Origin: a virus
IMG/VR virus record: IMGVR_UViG_3300008267_000250
Span: 1-64,000 of that record
Length of the DNA stretch: 64,000 nucleotides
Direction: 5' to 3' (one strand)
Shown here: piece after piece, positions 46,198 to 62,959 of the stretch
Position numbering within the stretch: position 1 is the first letter of the stretch
Layout of the letters: every line of letters starts with the position of its first letter
Notes under the pieces: generated by a model
Database searches by the model: none
The model's input: only the letters and a program-made list of their open reading frames with translations
What the model was told of the DNA's origin: nothing
Translations under genes and position numbers: made by a program

Positions 46198-46838
46198 TGT
46201 TGGAGATATCAAAAATAATATATAATTTTGTACTATATATAAAAAAGAAGCTAATGCGAAAAAAACAACCAAAAAAGGATCCCGCCTATATGTTATTTAT
46301 ATTCGGAGATTTTGATGAACATGAGAATTTGGCGGTAAACCTATCCTCACAACTTTTAACAATCGTTTCTTCACCTTTTTTGAAATACACATTCGGAGAG
46401 TACGGAGTGGTATTTCATTTTAGATCAAACGAACCGTTTGTTGATTTAAAAGAATATGTTGATATGGTGTTATCTGAAATCACCGAACAATATTTCTTGA
46501 TGGAAGTAACCAAAAATGTTGATATTTTGATGCCAAGGAAACTCAAAAAGGATTTTTTAAATATTGATGATGAAAAAACAAAAACGGAACCAAAAACCGG
46601 AAAAATTAACATTGAGGAATTAAAAGAAGAAAGAAAAAAAGATTTGAAAAATTTGTCGTTTGACTTTTTTATACCTATCTTTGACCCCAATTCAACGTTT
46701 AACACAAAAAAAGACGTTATTGAACCAACAGTGGATGAAATATTAGATAAGATAACAGAAAGAGGAATTGAATCATTAACAGAGCAAGAAAAAGAGATAT
46801 TAGACAATTATGGAAAGAGAAAAGATGGAAGACGTTAA
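46197..46838 (+). CDS. Hypothetical protein upstream of sigma factor
   Basis: 213 residues. The start is the ATG in TAATG at 46197; a second Met at residue 20 (MRKKQPKKDPAYMLFIFGDF) is also possible and avoids a hydrophobic tail. Middle region LLTIVSSPFLKYTFGEYGVVFHF looks like a compact alpha/beta domain; the C-terminal ~100 residues are charged and repetitive (TVDEILDKITERGIESLTEQ). Its end overlaps the sigma gene by 29 nt, or 14 nt if sigma starts at 46825. Possibly works with the sigma factor; no family recognised. Confidence 0.6.
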   Translation: MLEISKIIYNFVLYIKKKLMRKKQPKKDPAYMLFIFGDFDEHENLAVNLSSQLLTIVSSPFLKYTFGEYGVVFHFRSNEPFVDLKEYVDMVLSEITEQYFLMEVTKNVDILMPRKLKKDFLNIDDEKTKTEPKTGKINIEELKEERKKDLKNLSFDFFIPIFDPNSTFNTKKDVIEPTVDEILDKITERGIESLTEQEKEILDNYGKRKDGRR

Positions 46839-47625
46839 GTCGTCAAACCCCCTGAATCAAGATGAAATTCAGATTTATTTAAAGGACATTAGAAAATTGA
46901 AGGTTATGACACCTGAAAGAGAAAAAGTCCTTGCCGAACGTATTGTGTCAAGTGATTGTACGCAAAGAGAGAAAGAACTTATCCAAAAAGAAATGTTGGA
47001 AGGTAACTTGAGATTTGTTATCACGGTGGCAAAACAATATCAAAATCAAGGAATTGATTTGGCCGATTTAATTGCTGAAGGGAACTTTGGTCTAATGAAA
47101 GCCATCAAAAATTTTGATTGGAATAAAAACAACCGTTTTATCTCTTATGCGGTGTGGTGGATTAAACAATCCATTTTGCAATCTTTAAATGAAAATTCAA
47201 GAACGATTAGACTCCCGGTTAATGTTGTTCAGGATATGCAAAAAGAGAAAAAACAAAATGAAAAATCAAACAAGGAATTGTCCGATAAGTTTGCTTCATT
47301 ACCCAGAATGATTGATCTTGACATGCACATCAATGAGGACGGCGACACATTAATTGACATAATCAAAAACGAAAATGTTGATTCACCAGATGAAATATTC
47401 TCAACGAAAGATATCTTAAAACAAAAAATGATAGATATTATGAATGTTCTGGATGAAAGAGAACGTATCATCATTGAGGACTATTATGGGCTTAGTGGTA
47501 CACCACGAACATTGGAGGATATTGGTTCGGATTTTGGTTTGACAAAAGAGAGAGTGCGTCAGGTAAAAGAGAAAAGTTTGAGAAAATTAAGAAATAGTAG
47601 TTCAGAATTGTTTGAATATCTATAA
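46810..47625 (+). CDS. RpoD-like sigma-70 factor
   Basis: 271 residues. Region 1.2 EIQIYLKDIRKLKVMTPERE; region 2 with RFVITVAKQYQNQGIDLADL, IAEGNFGLMKAIKNFDWNKN and RFISYAVWWIKQSILQSLNE; region 3 IRLPVNVVQDMQKEKK; region 4.2 TLEDIGSDFGLTKERVRQVK. This is the full housekeeping-type layout, at about the size of Bacteroidota RpoD, rather than the short T4 gp55 type. It should direct RNA polymerase to phage promoters. The TAnnTTTG elements at 49400, 58110 and 59527 are candidate targets of it or of host RpoD. An alternative ATG lies at 46825. Confidence 0.88.
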   Translation: MEREKMEDVKSSNPLNQDEIQIYLKDIRKLKVMTPEREKVLAERIVSSDCTQREKELIQKEMLEGNLRFVITVAKQYQNQGIDLADLIAEGNFGLMKAIKNFDWNKNNRFISYAVWWIKQSILQSLNENSRTIRLPVNVVQDMQKEKKQNEKSNKELSDKFASLPRMIDLDMHINEDGDTLIDIIKNENVDSPDEIFSTKDILKQKMIDIMNVLDERERIIIEDYYGLSGTPRTLEDIGSDFGLTKERVRQVKEKSLRKLRNSSSELFEYL

Positions 47626-47628
47626 GAT

Positions 47629-48483
47629 ATGAATGTATTAAGTTTATTTGATGGGATTTCTTGTGGACAGATTGCACTTAACCGATTAGGTATTAAGTAT
47701 GATAAATATTATGCTTCCGAAATTGATGAATATGCGATTAAGGTAACACAACATAATTACCCAGAAACAATTCAGATTGGTGATGTTTTAAATGTAAAAG
47801 GGTCTGATTTACCAAAAATAGATTTAATGTTTGGTGGTTCACCGTGTCAAGGTTTTTCCTTTGCCGGTAAAGGATTGAATTTTGAGGACCCAAGGAGTAA
47901 ATTGTTTTTTGAGTTTGTTAGGTTACGAGATGAATTACAACCAAAATATTTCTTATTGGAAAATGTTAAGATGAAAAAGGAATCCGAAAATGTAATTACA
48001 GAACATATGGGTGTTGAGCCAGTAAGAATAAATAGTAAACTTGTTTCAGCACAAAGTAGAGAAAGGTTATATTGGACCAATATTCCAAATATCACACAAC
48101 CAGACGATAAAGGAATCTTAGTTAAAGATATTTTAGATTATTCAACAAAACACAAAACTTTATCACCAAAGGCAATACAAGCACAAATACATTATGCTAA
48201 AAATTATAAAGCTACTGGTAAAGCCCCAACATTGACTCGTGAATTAGCACATGGGTGGGGTAAAAATATCACACCAAAATGTTATGTTGAGATTAAAGCA
48301 ATAACCGGAGAAGATAGATTATTTTCACCGTTAGAATGTGAAAGGTTACAAACAGTTCCAGATGATTATACATCTATTTTATCAAACACACAAAGGTTTA
48401 ATATGTTAGGTAATGGGTGGACTGTTGATGTGATTGCACATATATTTAAAAATATGGAATATGAATGTATTGAGTCTATTTGA
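47629..48483 (+). CDS. DNA cytosine-5 methyltransferase (copy 1)
   Basis: 284 residues with the ordered C5-methyltransferase motifs: I (LSLFDGISCGQ), IV (FGGSPCQGFSFAG, catalytic Cys73), VI (LENV), VIII (SAQSRERLYWTNIP), and the C-terminal IX/X block CERLQTVPDDYT then MLGNGWTVDVIAHIF. Transfers methyl from SAM to C5 of cytosine in a specific sequence. Copy 2 starts inside its 3' end, and the two share long identical stretches, so this is a tandem duplication. No restriction partner is visible. Confidence 0.9.
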   Translation: MNVLSLFDGISCGQIALNRLGIKYDKYYASEIDEYAIKVTQHNYPETIQIGDVLNVKGSDLPKIDLMFGGSPCQGFSFAGKGLNFEDPRSKLFFEFVRLRDELQPKYFLLENVKMKKESENVITEHMGVEPVRINSKLVSAQSRERLYWTNIPNITQPDDKGILVKDILDYSTKHKTLSPKAIQAQIHYAKNYKATGKAPTLTRELAHGWGKNITPKCYVEIKAITGEDRLFSPLECERLQTVPDDYTSILSNTQRFNMLGNGWTVDVIAHIFKNMEYECIESI

Positions 48484-49387
48484 TGGATTATCTTGCGGAC
48501 AAATAGCCCTTGAACGTGCTGGTGTTGAGGTTAATAATTATTATGCTTCCGAAATTGATAAACACGCAATTAAAGTAACCCAACATAACTATCCCAACAC
48601 AATACAGTTAGGTGATGTTACACAAATAAAAGGTGAAGAATTAACCCAAATTGATTTGTTAATTGGAGGATCTCCTTGTCAGGGATTCTCATTTGCCGGA
48701 AGACAGTTAAACTTCAACGACCCAAGAAGTAAATTATTTTTTGAATTTATCAGACTAAAGAATGAGTTAAACCCAAAATATTTTTTACTTGAAAATGTTG
48801 TGATGAAACAAGAGTTCCAGGATGTTATAACGGAATATATGGGTGTTAAACCAATTAAAATAAATAGTAATTTAGTTTCGGCTCAAACAAGAGAACGTCT
48901 GTATTGGACCAACATACCAAATGTTGAACAACCAGAAGATCTTAACGTAAAACTAGAAGACATATTAGAAGACATTGGTCCAGATGGAAATTATTATGAT
49001 AGAAAAAAATTAAATAAGGCAACAATCCTTGGTCGGAGATTAAATCAACACGGTAAAAGAGATGATTATAATAAATCAATACCAATTACACAATGTTTAG
49101 AAGTAAGGGCAACAAATAGAGACAAGAGTAATTGTATCACAACTGTAGCTAAAGATAATGTATTAACAACATTACCGATTGGGAGACATAAAGATGCTTT
49201 TAAAAACAAGTTACCATTTAGATATTATACCATTAAAGAACACTGTAGATTACAAACAGTACCTGATACTTATTTTGATGGTGTTGCCAGTGAAAATCAA
49301 ATAAGAAAAATGATTGGTAACGGATGGACCGTTGATGTTATATCTCATATTTTTAAAAGTATTTATCAAGAAAGTTTGGTAAATTAG
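48461..49387 (+). CDS. DNA cytosine-5 methyltransferase (copy 2)
   Basis: 308 residues from the ATG at 48461, which begins the same MNVLSLFDG motif as copy 1; an upstream in-frame start would add 9 residues with no counterpart. Catalytic Cys73 in IGGSPCQGFSFAG and SAQTRERLYWTNIPN match copy 1. The target-recognition part (YDRKKLNKATILGRRLNQHG and after) differs and is longer, suggesting a different recognition sequence. The first 23 nt overlap the end of copy 1, so its stop codon lies within the coding of motif I. Confidence 0.88.
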   Translation: MNVLSLFDGLSCGQIALERAGVEVNNYYASEIDKHAIKVTQHNYPNTIQLGDVTQIKGEELTQIDLLIGGSPCQGFSFAGRQLNFNDPRSKLFFEFIRLKNELNPKYFLLENVVMKQEFQDVITEYMGVKPIKINSNLVSAQTRERLYWTNIPNVEQPEDLNVKLEDILEDIGPDGNYYDRKKLNKATILGRRLNQHGKRDDYNKSIPITQCLEVRATNRDKSNCITTVAKDNVLTTLPIGRHKDAFKNKLPFRYYTIKEHCRLQTVPDTYFDGVASENQIRKMIGNGWTVDVISHIFKSIYQESLVN

Positions 49388-49411: not shown

Positions 49412-49559
49412 GTTAATCTGATTAACGAATGGGTTGAACCGAGATTACCCATACAACTCGGCGGAATGTGACACGAGGATCTCAAGGTGAAATTCCTCAA
49501 TCTTGTCTATATGACATGATGAAACTACACTACCCCCATTTATTTAAGTGGGGGTTTTT
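49412..49559 (+). ncRNA. Pseudoknot-containing non-coding RNA (sRNA or cis-regulatory leader)
   Basis: Non-coding stretch between copy 2 and the membrane-protein gene. A 5' hairpin GTTAAT-ctg-ATTAAC (49412-49426) is followed by a regular H-type pseudoknot. Stem 1 is ATGGGT 49429-49434 with ACCCAT 49447-49452; stem 2 is CCGAG 49439-49443 with CTCGG 49457-49461; the loops are 4, 3 and 4 nt. A third stem-loop follows: GACA 49470-49473 with TGTC 49504-49507 outside, and GAGGA 49475-49479 with TCCTC 49494-49498 inside. A strong terminator ends it. A promoter lies just upstream. It is not recognised as tRNA, tmRNA, RNase P, 6S or a known riboswitch class. It could be a trans-acting sRNA or a terminator-controlled leader. 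Confidence 0.65.
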
Positions 49560-53462: not shown

Positions 53463-53486
53463 TAAACTTAAAGATATTTATTAGGT

Positions 53487-54485
53487 ATGAACAAAGATAT
53501 TTTAAACATAGTAAATAGAGTTTTGTCTGAGGAATATAACGACAAAATGAACGAATCCAAAAAGGATACGTGTGAACAATGTGGTGGAAACACAATGAAA
53601 GAAGGTGAATGCTCAGAATGTGGATATATGAAAGAGGAGTTTAAAGAAGGTAAAAAACTTTCTAAAAAACAGGAATATATTGCTAAACAAGCTGAACCTA
53701 AAAACAAAATTGACGCTAAAGATTTTGCTAAACTTAGAAGTAAAAAATCAGACACAAAAAATTCAAAATCTGAAAAAACTAAAGTAGATGAATCTAGATA
53801 TAGTATTGAATTAGACGGAAAGAGATACGTATTTAACGAAAATGAAGTAGTTAACATCATTGAAAATATTGTTTTAGAGGAGAAGTCAAAAGAGAAAAAA
53901 ATGACCAAAACATTAAACGTAACTAAAGATTCACAAAACAAGTCTAAAAAAGAAAATGACGACTACATATCAAGTGTTGTTAAAAAAATGAAAGATTATT
54001 TAAAGGACGGATCAAAAGGTGATTTTGAAATGGAACCGGATAGTTTCCCCAAAGGAAATGGTGAATTAGCTAAAATGGATAAAATGGCTTATGTACCATC
54101 TGATGGTGTTGAGGAGTATGTACAAAACTTTACGGCCGCTGGACTTGAAAATTTAGATTATGATGCGATTCATCCGAATGAGGAATGGGTTGATGACTTA
54201 ATGGTTGGTTCATCAAGAACTGGAAATAACCCAGAATGGGCAAACGCAGTTGAGACACCAGTTAACAAAAAAAGAAACCAAATCAGAAAAGATAACTTAC
54301 TTGCCAAAATCAAAAGAAAGGCTTACAACAAGTCAGCACAACCGATTGTAAATGACAAGAGTGGAAATGAAACGGATAAAGCATCAAAAATAATGATGCA
54401 AGTTGAATCAGAAACAGAAAAGAAAGTGTTGTCTGACATTGAAAAAATGAAAAAATTGTTGTCATACAATTCAAAAACCCAATAA
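53487..54485 (+). CDS. Hypothetical Zn-knuckle protein, capsid-targeting-like N-terminus
   Basis: 332 residues. N-terminus MNKDILNIVNRVLSEEYND has VLSE, again like a T4-type head-protease site, and a second similar helix occurs near residues 120-130 (VVNIIENIVLEEKSKEKK). A zinc knuckle CEQCGGNTMKEGECSECGYM lies near residues 29-48. Overall very Lys/Glu/Asp-rich with two acidic structured parts (DGVEEYVQNFTAAGLENLDY and ASKIMMQVESETEKKVLS). Following the similar 162-residue protein by 24 nt. No enzymatic motif. Proposed as an internal virion protein, unproven. Confidence 0.58.
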   Translation: MNKDILNIVNRVLSEEYNDKMNESKKDTCEQCGGNTMKEGECSECGYMKEEFKEGKKLSKKQEYIAKQAEPKNKIDAKDFAKLRSKKSDTKNSKSEKTKVDESRYSIELDGKRYVFNENEVVNIIENIVLEEKSKEKKMTKTLNVTKDSQNKSKKENDDYISSVVKKMKDYLKDGSKGDFEMEPDSFPKGNGELAKMDKMAYVPSDGVEEYVQNFTAAGLENLDYDAIHPNEEWVDDLMVGSSRTGNNPEWANAVETPVNKKRNQIRKDNLLAKIKRKAYNKSAQPIVNDKSGNETDKASKIMMQVESETEKKVLSDIEKMKKLLSYNSKTQ

Positions 54486-54505
54486 ATAAAACTTTAGTTT
54501 TAATT

Positions 54506-54556
54506 GACCCATATTATTATTAGACTATATGAACTTAGATGGTAATAATATGGGTC
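54506..54556 (+). promoter_or_regulatory. 14-bp perfect inverted repeat spanning a start codon
   Basis: GACCCATATTATTA at 54506-54519 and its exact complement TAATAATATGGGTC at 54543-54556, separated by a 23-nt loop. The candidate start ATG 54529 is in the loop and a second in-frame ATG (54550) is in the right arm. Suggests control of translation initiation by RNA structure, or an operator for a dimeric repressor. Confidence 0.6.
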
Positions 54557-55023
54557 GTTTTTTTGATTGGTTAGCCAAACCAATGGAAAGAGAGGATATT
54601 GATGCTTGGTATATGGCAAACAATATACTTCCAGAATATACCGAATTATTCAGAGACTTCTGTTTATCTTTTTTAAACATTCTTAATGACACATATCTAG
54701 GTGACACTACTGACTCTAATGACACCAAAATCATTATGAGTGAAGATCAAAACAAAGAACACTTTAGATGGTGTTGGAAAAAAACAGTTGAGAATTTCCA
54801 AAAAGAAAATATAAATTTCATCTTCAAAGAGAATGATTATGAATTTTTTGAGAGTTTCTTTTATGAAATATTCTATAATCAAGAAAGTGAAAAAATGAAA
54901 AACGCACTCAACGAGTTCTTCGTTGATTTATTTGATGAAAGTCACAACAAAACAAAATCTGATATAGAAATATTCACTGATATCTACAAAACCTTAGAAA
55001 GATCTTTAAATATTGTTGATTAA
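54529..55023 (+). CDS. Hypothetical protein under a start-codon hairpin
   Basis: 164 residues from ATG 54529; ATG 54550 would give 157 residues (MGRFFDWLAKPMEREDIDAW). Helical and acidic with a Trp/Phe-rich core (FRWCWKKTVENFQKENINFI). No membrane segment or signal. The sequence seems a single compact helical domain. Its start lies within a perfect inverted repeat, suggesting regulation of its translation. Family not recognised. Confidence 0.58.
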   Translation: MNLDGNNMGRFFDWLAKPMEREDIDAWYMANNILPEYTELFRDFCLSFLNILNDTYLGDTTDSNDTKIIMSEDQNKEHFRWCWKKTVENFQKENINFIFKENDYEFFESFFYEIFYNQESEKMKNALNEFFVDLFDESHNKTKSDIEIFTDIYKTLERSLNIVD

Positions 55024-55091: not shown

Positions 55092-55274
55092 ATGGAAACT
55101 TTAGAACAAATTAAAACATTAGTAGAAACTCTAACTGCCGAAACAACAAAATTTTATACAAAAAGTAATAAGTCAGCAGGTACGAGAGCAAGAAAAACAG
55201 CACAAGAATTAAAAGATCTTATGCAAGTTTTAAGAAAAGAGATTTTAGCTTTCAATAAAGAAGAAGAAAAATAA
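55092..55274 (+). CDS. Histone H1-like Hc1 family protein
   Basis: 60 residues: METLEQIKTLVETLTAETTK, then FYTKSNKSAGTRARKTAQEL and KDLMQVLRKEILAFNKEEEK. The pattern 'KFY.K.NK.AGTR.RK..QELK.L.Q..RkeI' is that of the Hc1 histone H1-like family (PF07432), best known in Chlamydia and widespread in Bacteroidota as ~60-residue proteins. Chlamydial Hc1 compacts DNA. This copy has the conserved N-terminal domain but no long Lys/Ala-rich tail. It could condense phage or host DNA. The match over the whole length makes it one of the firmest host clues in the window. Confidence 0.82.
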   Translation: METLEQIKTLVETLTAETTKFYTKSNKSAGTRARKTAQELKDLMQVLRKEILAFNKEEEK

Positions 55275-62142: not shown

Positions 62143-62959
62143 TATAAGTTCATCCACCAAATCAAGTTTTTCCCAAAGTAATTCATTTTTACTCAAGTAT
62201 AGATCACAACCGTTAAATTGTGACAAATCAAACCTTTCTTTTAATTCGTTAAGTTCAAAAGGAAATACATCCAAAATTAAAGATACCAACCAATCTTTAT
62301 TTACTATGTGTTTACCGGAAACAATATCAAAAATAACATTCTCATTATTGATTTCATTAATTGTTCCGATGTTACTTAACTTATATGTAATTTCTGACGA
62401 TATACCTTTTTTGAATAAATGGTACGTGATATATCTTAATAAGATGTGATAGTATTTTTCATTATTATTGGATAAACCAAAAAACTATGGACCTACTTAA
62501 TGGAAAATTGTTCAGAATGTCGTAGTTACATCTTGTTAAATCTTTTTCACTACAATCAAAATAAATAATATCATCATCAATTTTTAAATTTAGTAAAACA
62601 CCTTCCTTTACTAGACCATCAACAAATGTTTGCAACGTACTGTTATTATTTTTTGATTCACTATAACTTATAATTAAGTTTTTAGTATCAACTTCGGTGT
62701 TATAATTAATAACATCAAAAACTCTGATGGAATTCGCCAGTTCCTCACTATAAGTCAAACAAAATTCCCTTAATAGGTCACTTAAATTTATAACCACATC
62801 GGAGTTGGTATTTCCTTTAACAACAAAAAAATTCCTGACGTTAATAACACTTATTTTTGTGTTTGCGTCAGGAAATGTTTCATTAATTTTATTTACAATA
62901 AGACTTGCAAAGATATTACAAAGGTGTTTACCACCCAATAAATTGTATACTTCAATCAT
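62134..62959 (-). pseudogene. Frameshifted minus-strand gene (about 270 residues if rejoined)
   Basis: Two minus-strand frames abut. The upstream one (ATG 62959 to TAA 62465, 164 residues) ends LSRSIVFWFIQ. The other is open from 62484 to TGA 62134, has no start codon of its own, and reads from the junction FFGLSNNNEKYYHILLRYIT through YHLFKKGISSEITYKLSNIG, ending KLDLVDELILF. They meet at a run of six A (62479-62484 on the plus strand). Removing one base, or a +1 slip, would join them into one protein of about 272 residues. It could be a sequencing error, a real lesion or a programmed frameshift. No family recognised with confidence. Confidence 0.62.

Follow-up and report, generated by a model that had tools for sequence, protein, structure and literature searches.

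The window, a 64,000-nt stretch of a 72-kb virus contig, carries on its + strand an upstream gene of 332 aa (53487-54485) and, beyond the stop codon of that gene (54483-54485) and a 43-nt gap, a gene of 164 aa (54529-55023) whose first codons form the 3' half of a hairpin. The hairpin is an inverted repeat of two 14-nt arms, 54506-54519 and 54543-54556, which lie 23 nt apart and are 14/14 complementary (100%). The 5' arm (GACCCATATTATTA), defined by complementarity and covariation, lies in the 43-nt gap and is non-coding, the loop and inner stem (54520-54542) hold the start codon ATG 54529-54531, and the 3' arm encodes part of the sequence NNMGR. Immediately 3' of the stem is GTTTTTTT (54557-54564), in which a single G is followed by a T7 run (54558-54564) composed of the end of an Arg codon and two Phe codons (CGT TTT TTT, Arg-Phe-Phe), the presumed U tract of a terminator. 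An earlier note on this DNA had described the perfect 14-bp stem and its 23-nt spacing exactly, and had correctly placed ATG 54529 in the loop and ATG 54550 in the stem, where it falls in the 3' arm. Its statement that the repeat encodes part of the N-terminus of the protein applies to the 3' arm and not to the non-coding 5' arm; this restriction of the coding role and the T run after the stem were not part of that note.

With the inner pairs counted, the outer stem extends to 17 bp, and the + strand RNA folds with -27.9 kcal/mol (z = -5.6), 0/200 shuffles being as good. The whole 64-kb window contains one stem of at least 14 bp with a loop of at most 40 nt, namely this hairpin, which is also the longest short-range stem in the window, and six random control sequences built from the dinucleotide frequencies of the window contained 0 stems of at least 14 bp. 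The hairpin is not a product of chance. Together, the stem and the T7 run have the anatomy of an intrinsic terminator: the stem is stable and has G-C pairs at its base, and the U tract starts within 0-2 nt of it. A d'Aubenton-Carafa type score was +18.6 for the homolog L007 and +16.1 for L016, and it was -19.6 for the window because a G separates the stem from the T run there.

ATG 54529 is likely the true start of the 164-aa gene, since homologs keep an ATG at this position, followed by a variable N-terminus of 3-6 residues before the conserved NNMGRFFDWL. The protein is predicted to be all-helical; searches of Pfam and PHROG gave no match of value and those of the PDB no fold match, and the single match in the fold search was an uncharacterised viral protein fold. 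No relatives were found among named phage records or cellular genomes. The relatives are viral contigs as long as 326 kb, 22 of which share the gene order around the hairpin. The window encodes a sigma-70-like protein (46810-47625) and, as read from the sequence, apparently a DnaJ-like protein, and an Hc1 histone H1-like gene lies at 55092-55274 (PF07432, E 2e-19). The lineage may be the same as that of the Moraphages, large phages of aquatic habitats that have predicted Bacteroidota hosts and in some cases carry DnaJ and Hc1 (PMC12619734). Elsewhere in the window, two adjacent and similar genes (47629-48483 and 48461-49387) are cytosine-5 DNA methyltransferase-like (MNVLSLFDG..CGQIAL).

The hairpin is kept in relatives through compensatory changes. 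Among close relatives (15 stem-bearing sequences, window included), 94.1% of cells were paired, compared with 32-66% in slid controls, and changes on both sides of a pair numbered 10 versus 2.6 in shuffled data (0/500). The same A-U to G-C exchange was found in L005/L008, L007 and L019/L047, which occupy three separate places on a tree built with FastTree. The more distant clade gave a similar picture, with 97.8% of cells paired and 13 both-side changes versus 3.2 shuffled (0/500). There were 18 G-U cells against 4 A-C cells, and the structure is therefore one of the + strand RNA, not a DNA site or a structure of the other strand. Arg10 was encoded by CGT, which makes up 3-7% of Arg codons, in 15/15 stem-bearing genes of the R type and also in L003, and this codon supplies both a pairing C and the first T of the T run. 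The earlier note had suggested looking for compensatory changes in related phages; such changes are present in both the close and the more distant clades, and they support a hairpin that is real, functional and conserved.

We compared 49 distinct homologs and found a stem of at least 9 bp abutting the T run (gap of -1 to +2) in 39 of them, whereas 0.72 stems would be expected when the upstream bases are shuffled. The stems set against the same T run were unrelated in sequence (GACCCAT.., TTCCCC.., ATTCTCC.., ATTATCC..). In the clade with Asn in place of Arg10 (L040, L043 and L053), the old 5' arm was lost and a new arm, TTCCCCATGT, pairs with ACATGGGGAA directly before T7. Homologs with 36-50% identity to the queries used had other stems directly before T7, such as ATTCTCCATAG/CTATGGAGAAT and, where Asp replaces Glu, ATTATCCAT/ATGGATAAT. 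In the clade of the window, the start codon is part of the loop; the Asn clade and three of the other homologs have it in the 5' arm, and most members of the more distant clade in the 3' arm. Since the start codon shifts and the T run keeps its place next to the stem, what is conserved is a stem with a U tract and not a stem with an AUG, which points to transcription termination.

The stem and the T run were also lost together. A stem was present in 37/38 sequences with a T run of at least 7 and in 2/11 of those with a shorter run (Fisher 2.6e-7, for sequences that are not independent), and on the tree there were about four separate joint losses of both elements and one loss of the stem, in L003, with T7 intact. 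The earlier note had held that loss of the stem in relatives with a conserved coding sequence would speak against its proposal; this combination occurred in the single lineage L003, and the other stem losses mostly accompany changes in the T run. Because several lineages lack the stem, it must be dispensable. In L090 and L091, the most distant homologs, a separate GGGGCTC/GAGCCCC hairpin followed by TTATTTATT lies between the upstream stop and the start codon, which is consistent with a need to insulate at this gene junction. The T run alone is weak evidence, because the protein itself also constrains the Phe-Phe pair and TTT represents 81% of Phe codons, and its adjacency to the stem is partly built in, because some of the 3' arm is dictated by the protein sequence.

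The 164-aa gene was first taken as promoterless, there being no TATTTAY before it, and a promoter of the type TTTACA-N16-TATAAT was then found in the more distant clade. In 22 sequences of that clade, TTTACA or a close variant is followed after exactly 16 nt by TATAAT, TATTAT, TATATT or TACATT, with the -10 ending directly before the 5' arm. The hexamers were 93% and 87% conserved and the spacer 57%, figures biased upward by the selection of the 22 sequences by their hexamer pattern (22/26 scanned sequences fit). Three homologs, L082, L089 and L143, retain a 12/12 promoter with a decayed stem and T run. The window contains a candidate promoter, TTTAGT-N16-TATTAT (54493-54520, +), whose -10 at 54515-54520 overlaps the 5' arm; its 9/12 matches compare with 7.2 in shuffles, and promoter-like matches are common in the AT-rich DNA of the window; it would be a weak promoter. 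Across the clade of the window, the mean was 8.6/12 versus 7.2 shuffled, again with the -10 inside the 5' arm. A start site usually lies 6-8 nt from the -10, a distance that in the more distant clade would place it within the 5' arm. For the window, the predicted start is at about 54524-54528, 1-5 nt before the ATG, and RNA folded from the predicted start had no significant structure (z = 0.40 for the window and 0.45 for L079).

Other promoter-like motifs surround the gene. The upstream gene is preceded, just before its start, by a late-promoter-like TATTTAT (53475-53481, +), which is kept in several relatives. TATTTAT occurs 12-40 nt before the start codon in 9/20 genes with upstream gaps (those at 2260, 10693, 19840, 20936, 23937, 32153, 49598, 53487 and 58144) and is likely a phage late promoter element. 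A TATTTAY at +491 to +499, at first sight the late motif of the gene that follows, is better explained as the -35 (TTTACA) of the promoter of the histone-like gene, the upstream gap of which contains a TTTACA-N16/17-TAnnnT promoter-like motif in most relatives.

We propose that the hairpin and the T7 run probably constitute an intrinsic terminator that spans both the promoter and the start codon of the 164-aa gene and insulates it against upstream transcription. Built on the observed stem, T run, covariation, family-wide adjacency and promoter motif of the more distant clade, the model would operate as follows. RNA polymerase arriving from the upstream 332-aa gene, whose transcript is the presumed target, would transcribe the whole hairpin, which would fold just ahead of the U tract, a Phe-Phe stretch in the reading frame of the next gene, and would then stop. 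In any read-through RNA, the hairpin would also sequester the start region. Transcripts initiated at the gene's own promoter should begin in the 5' arm or the loop, because the -10 lies in the 5' arm in near relatives and directly before it in distant ones; without the 5' arm, they would be transcribed and translated freely. With upstream transcripts stopped and local ones escaping, the element would thus insulate the gene, and its purpose is probably to make expression depend solely on the gene's own promoter, to the exclusion of the transcript of its neighbour. In E. coli, terminators are functional when placed within the first 100 bp of a coding sequence (PMC4824070). We lean slightly towards the fuller description of a phage insulator that fits promoter, intrinsic terminator and start codon into the same stretch of about 60 bases, with the U tract encoded by two Phe codons and the N-terminus co-evolving with a non-coding arm, the whole being maintained family-wide through repeated exchange of the stem.

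The nearest precedent is the hairpin of T4 gene e, although it acts on translation. In T4 e, soc, 49 and I-TevI, RNA arriving from upstream carries a hairpin over the translation start, and in e and I-TevI a local promoter lies within the region encoding the 5' strand of the hairpin (PMC3014915, PMC2988022). These late genes and mobE of phage Aeh1 share with the present locus the logic of a hairpin across the start and a local RNA without it. A translation lock of this type, in which the hairpin blocks the start codon on read-through mRNA, the mRNA of the local promoter is unlocked and termination is incidental, would fit this layout and the enclosure of the start codon by the hairpin in stem-bearing homologs, yet we regard it as unlikely. 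In T4 the helix hides the Shine-Dalgarno sequence or the AUG, whereas here the AUG varies in position, from the open loop in the clade of the window to the 5' or 3' arm elsewhere, and the stem ends at the T7 run, with stem and T run remaining adjacent; this points to termination, unlike in T4. The AUG is paired in some other clades and lies in the loop in the window, which therefore does not belong to the gene e type, and a local promoter is clear in the more distant clade, where the -10 abuts the arm, and weak in the window (9/12 versus 7.2). Moreover, stem loss accompanies shortening of the T run, which a translation lock would not require. A search for sequence relation to the T4 hairpin-locked genes found none. 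The effect on initiation that the earlier note had anticipated is possible and, on read-through RNA, compatible with a terminator, and it would be secondary, since the start codon wanders while the stem stays fixed against the T run.

Still less probable is a regulated attenuator or protein-binding site, where termination or translation would be switched by the binding of some phage or host factor to the hairpin; the 164-aa protein itself might be this factor. The position of the hairpin at the start of the gene for this helical, uncharacterised protein would suit such a role, but the clades freely replace both stem sequence and loop, the hairpin is present in a single copy per genome, and a covariance-model search of Rfam matched it to no known RNA family. 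The same freedom of stem sequence and the single copy, always at the same locus, speak against the suggestion of the earlier note that the repeat is an operator, if this means a protein-binding site that recurs in the genome, and a dispersed operator is not supported, the hairpin being confined to one locus per genome. In one sequence taken by itself, the arms are perfectly palindromic, as a DNA operator palindrome or a chance repeat might be; however, the covariation in both clades and the tolerance of wobble pairs only in the + strand sense largely refute both, and with one copy per genome and stems against the T run throughout the family, this explanation is scarcely credible.

As a terminator, the element combines familiar and unusual traits. 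It shares with intrinsic (Rho-independent) terminators the stable stem, the G-C pairs at the base of that stem and a T run within 0-2 nt, but such terminators are usually found between genes, whereas here the next gene uses the 3' arm and the U tract as codons and has a promoter that overlaps or adjoins the 5' arm. Leader attenuators and the terminators of riboswitches likewise control expression from the start of a gene; here, in contrast, transcription from the gene's own promoter is predicted to begin within the terminator and not before it, and no aptamer or alternative fold was found. In this family of phages, which are uncultured and often very large, the hairpin looks like a terminator that extends across the start of a gene. 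If this is true, the logic of the T4 hairpins has a counterpart in such phages at the level of transcription, and the element offers a compact way for a gene to refuse the transcript of its neighbour and obey its own promoter, a regulatory element paid for in codons. Its signature is searchable: a stem against a Phe-Phe T run at the N-terminus, with a promoter in or before the 5' arm.

Two further hairpins were observed in the window. A second terminator-like hairpin in a coding region lies on the - strand at 62832-62874, with the structure TTCCTGACG-N25-CGTCAGGAA and a T7 run behind it, and occupies nt 85-127 of the ORF 62959-62465; a search gave no diverged relatives and one near-identical relative. 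At 49532-49555, an ordinary intergenic terminator (ACCCCC..GGGGGT followed by TTTTC) stands directly before a TATTTAT motif and the next gene, and represents a version of the arrangement at 54506 in which the parts are separate.
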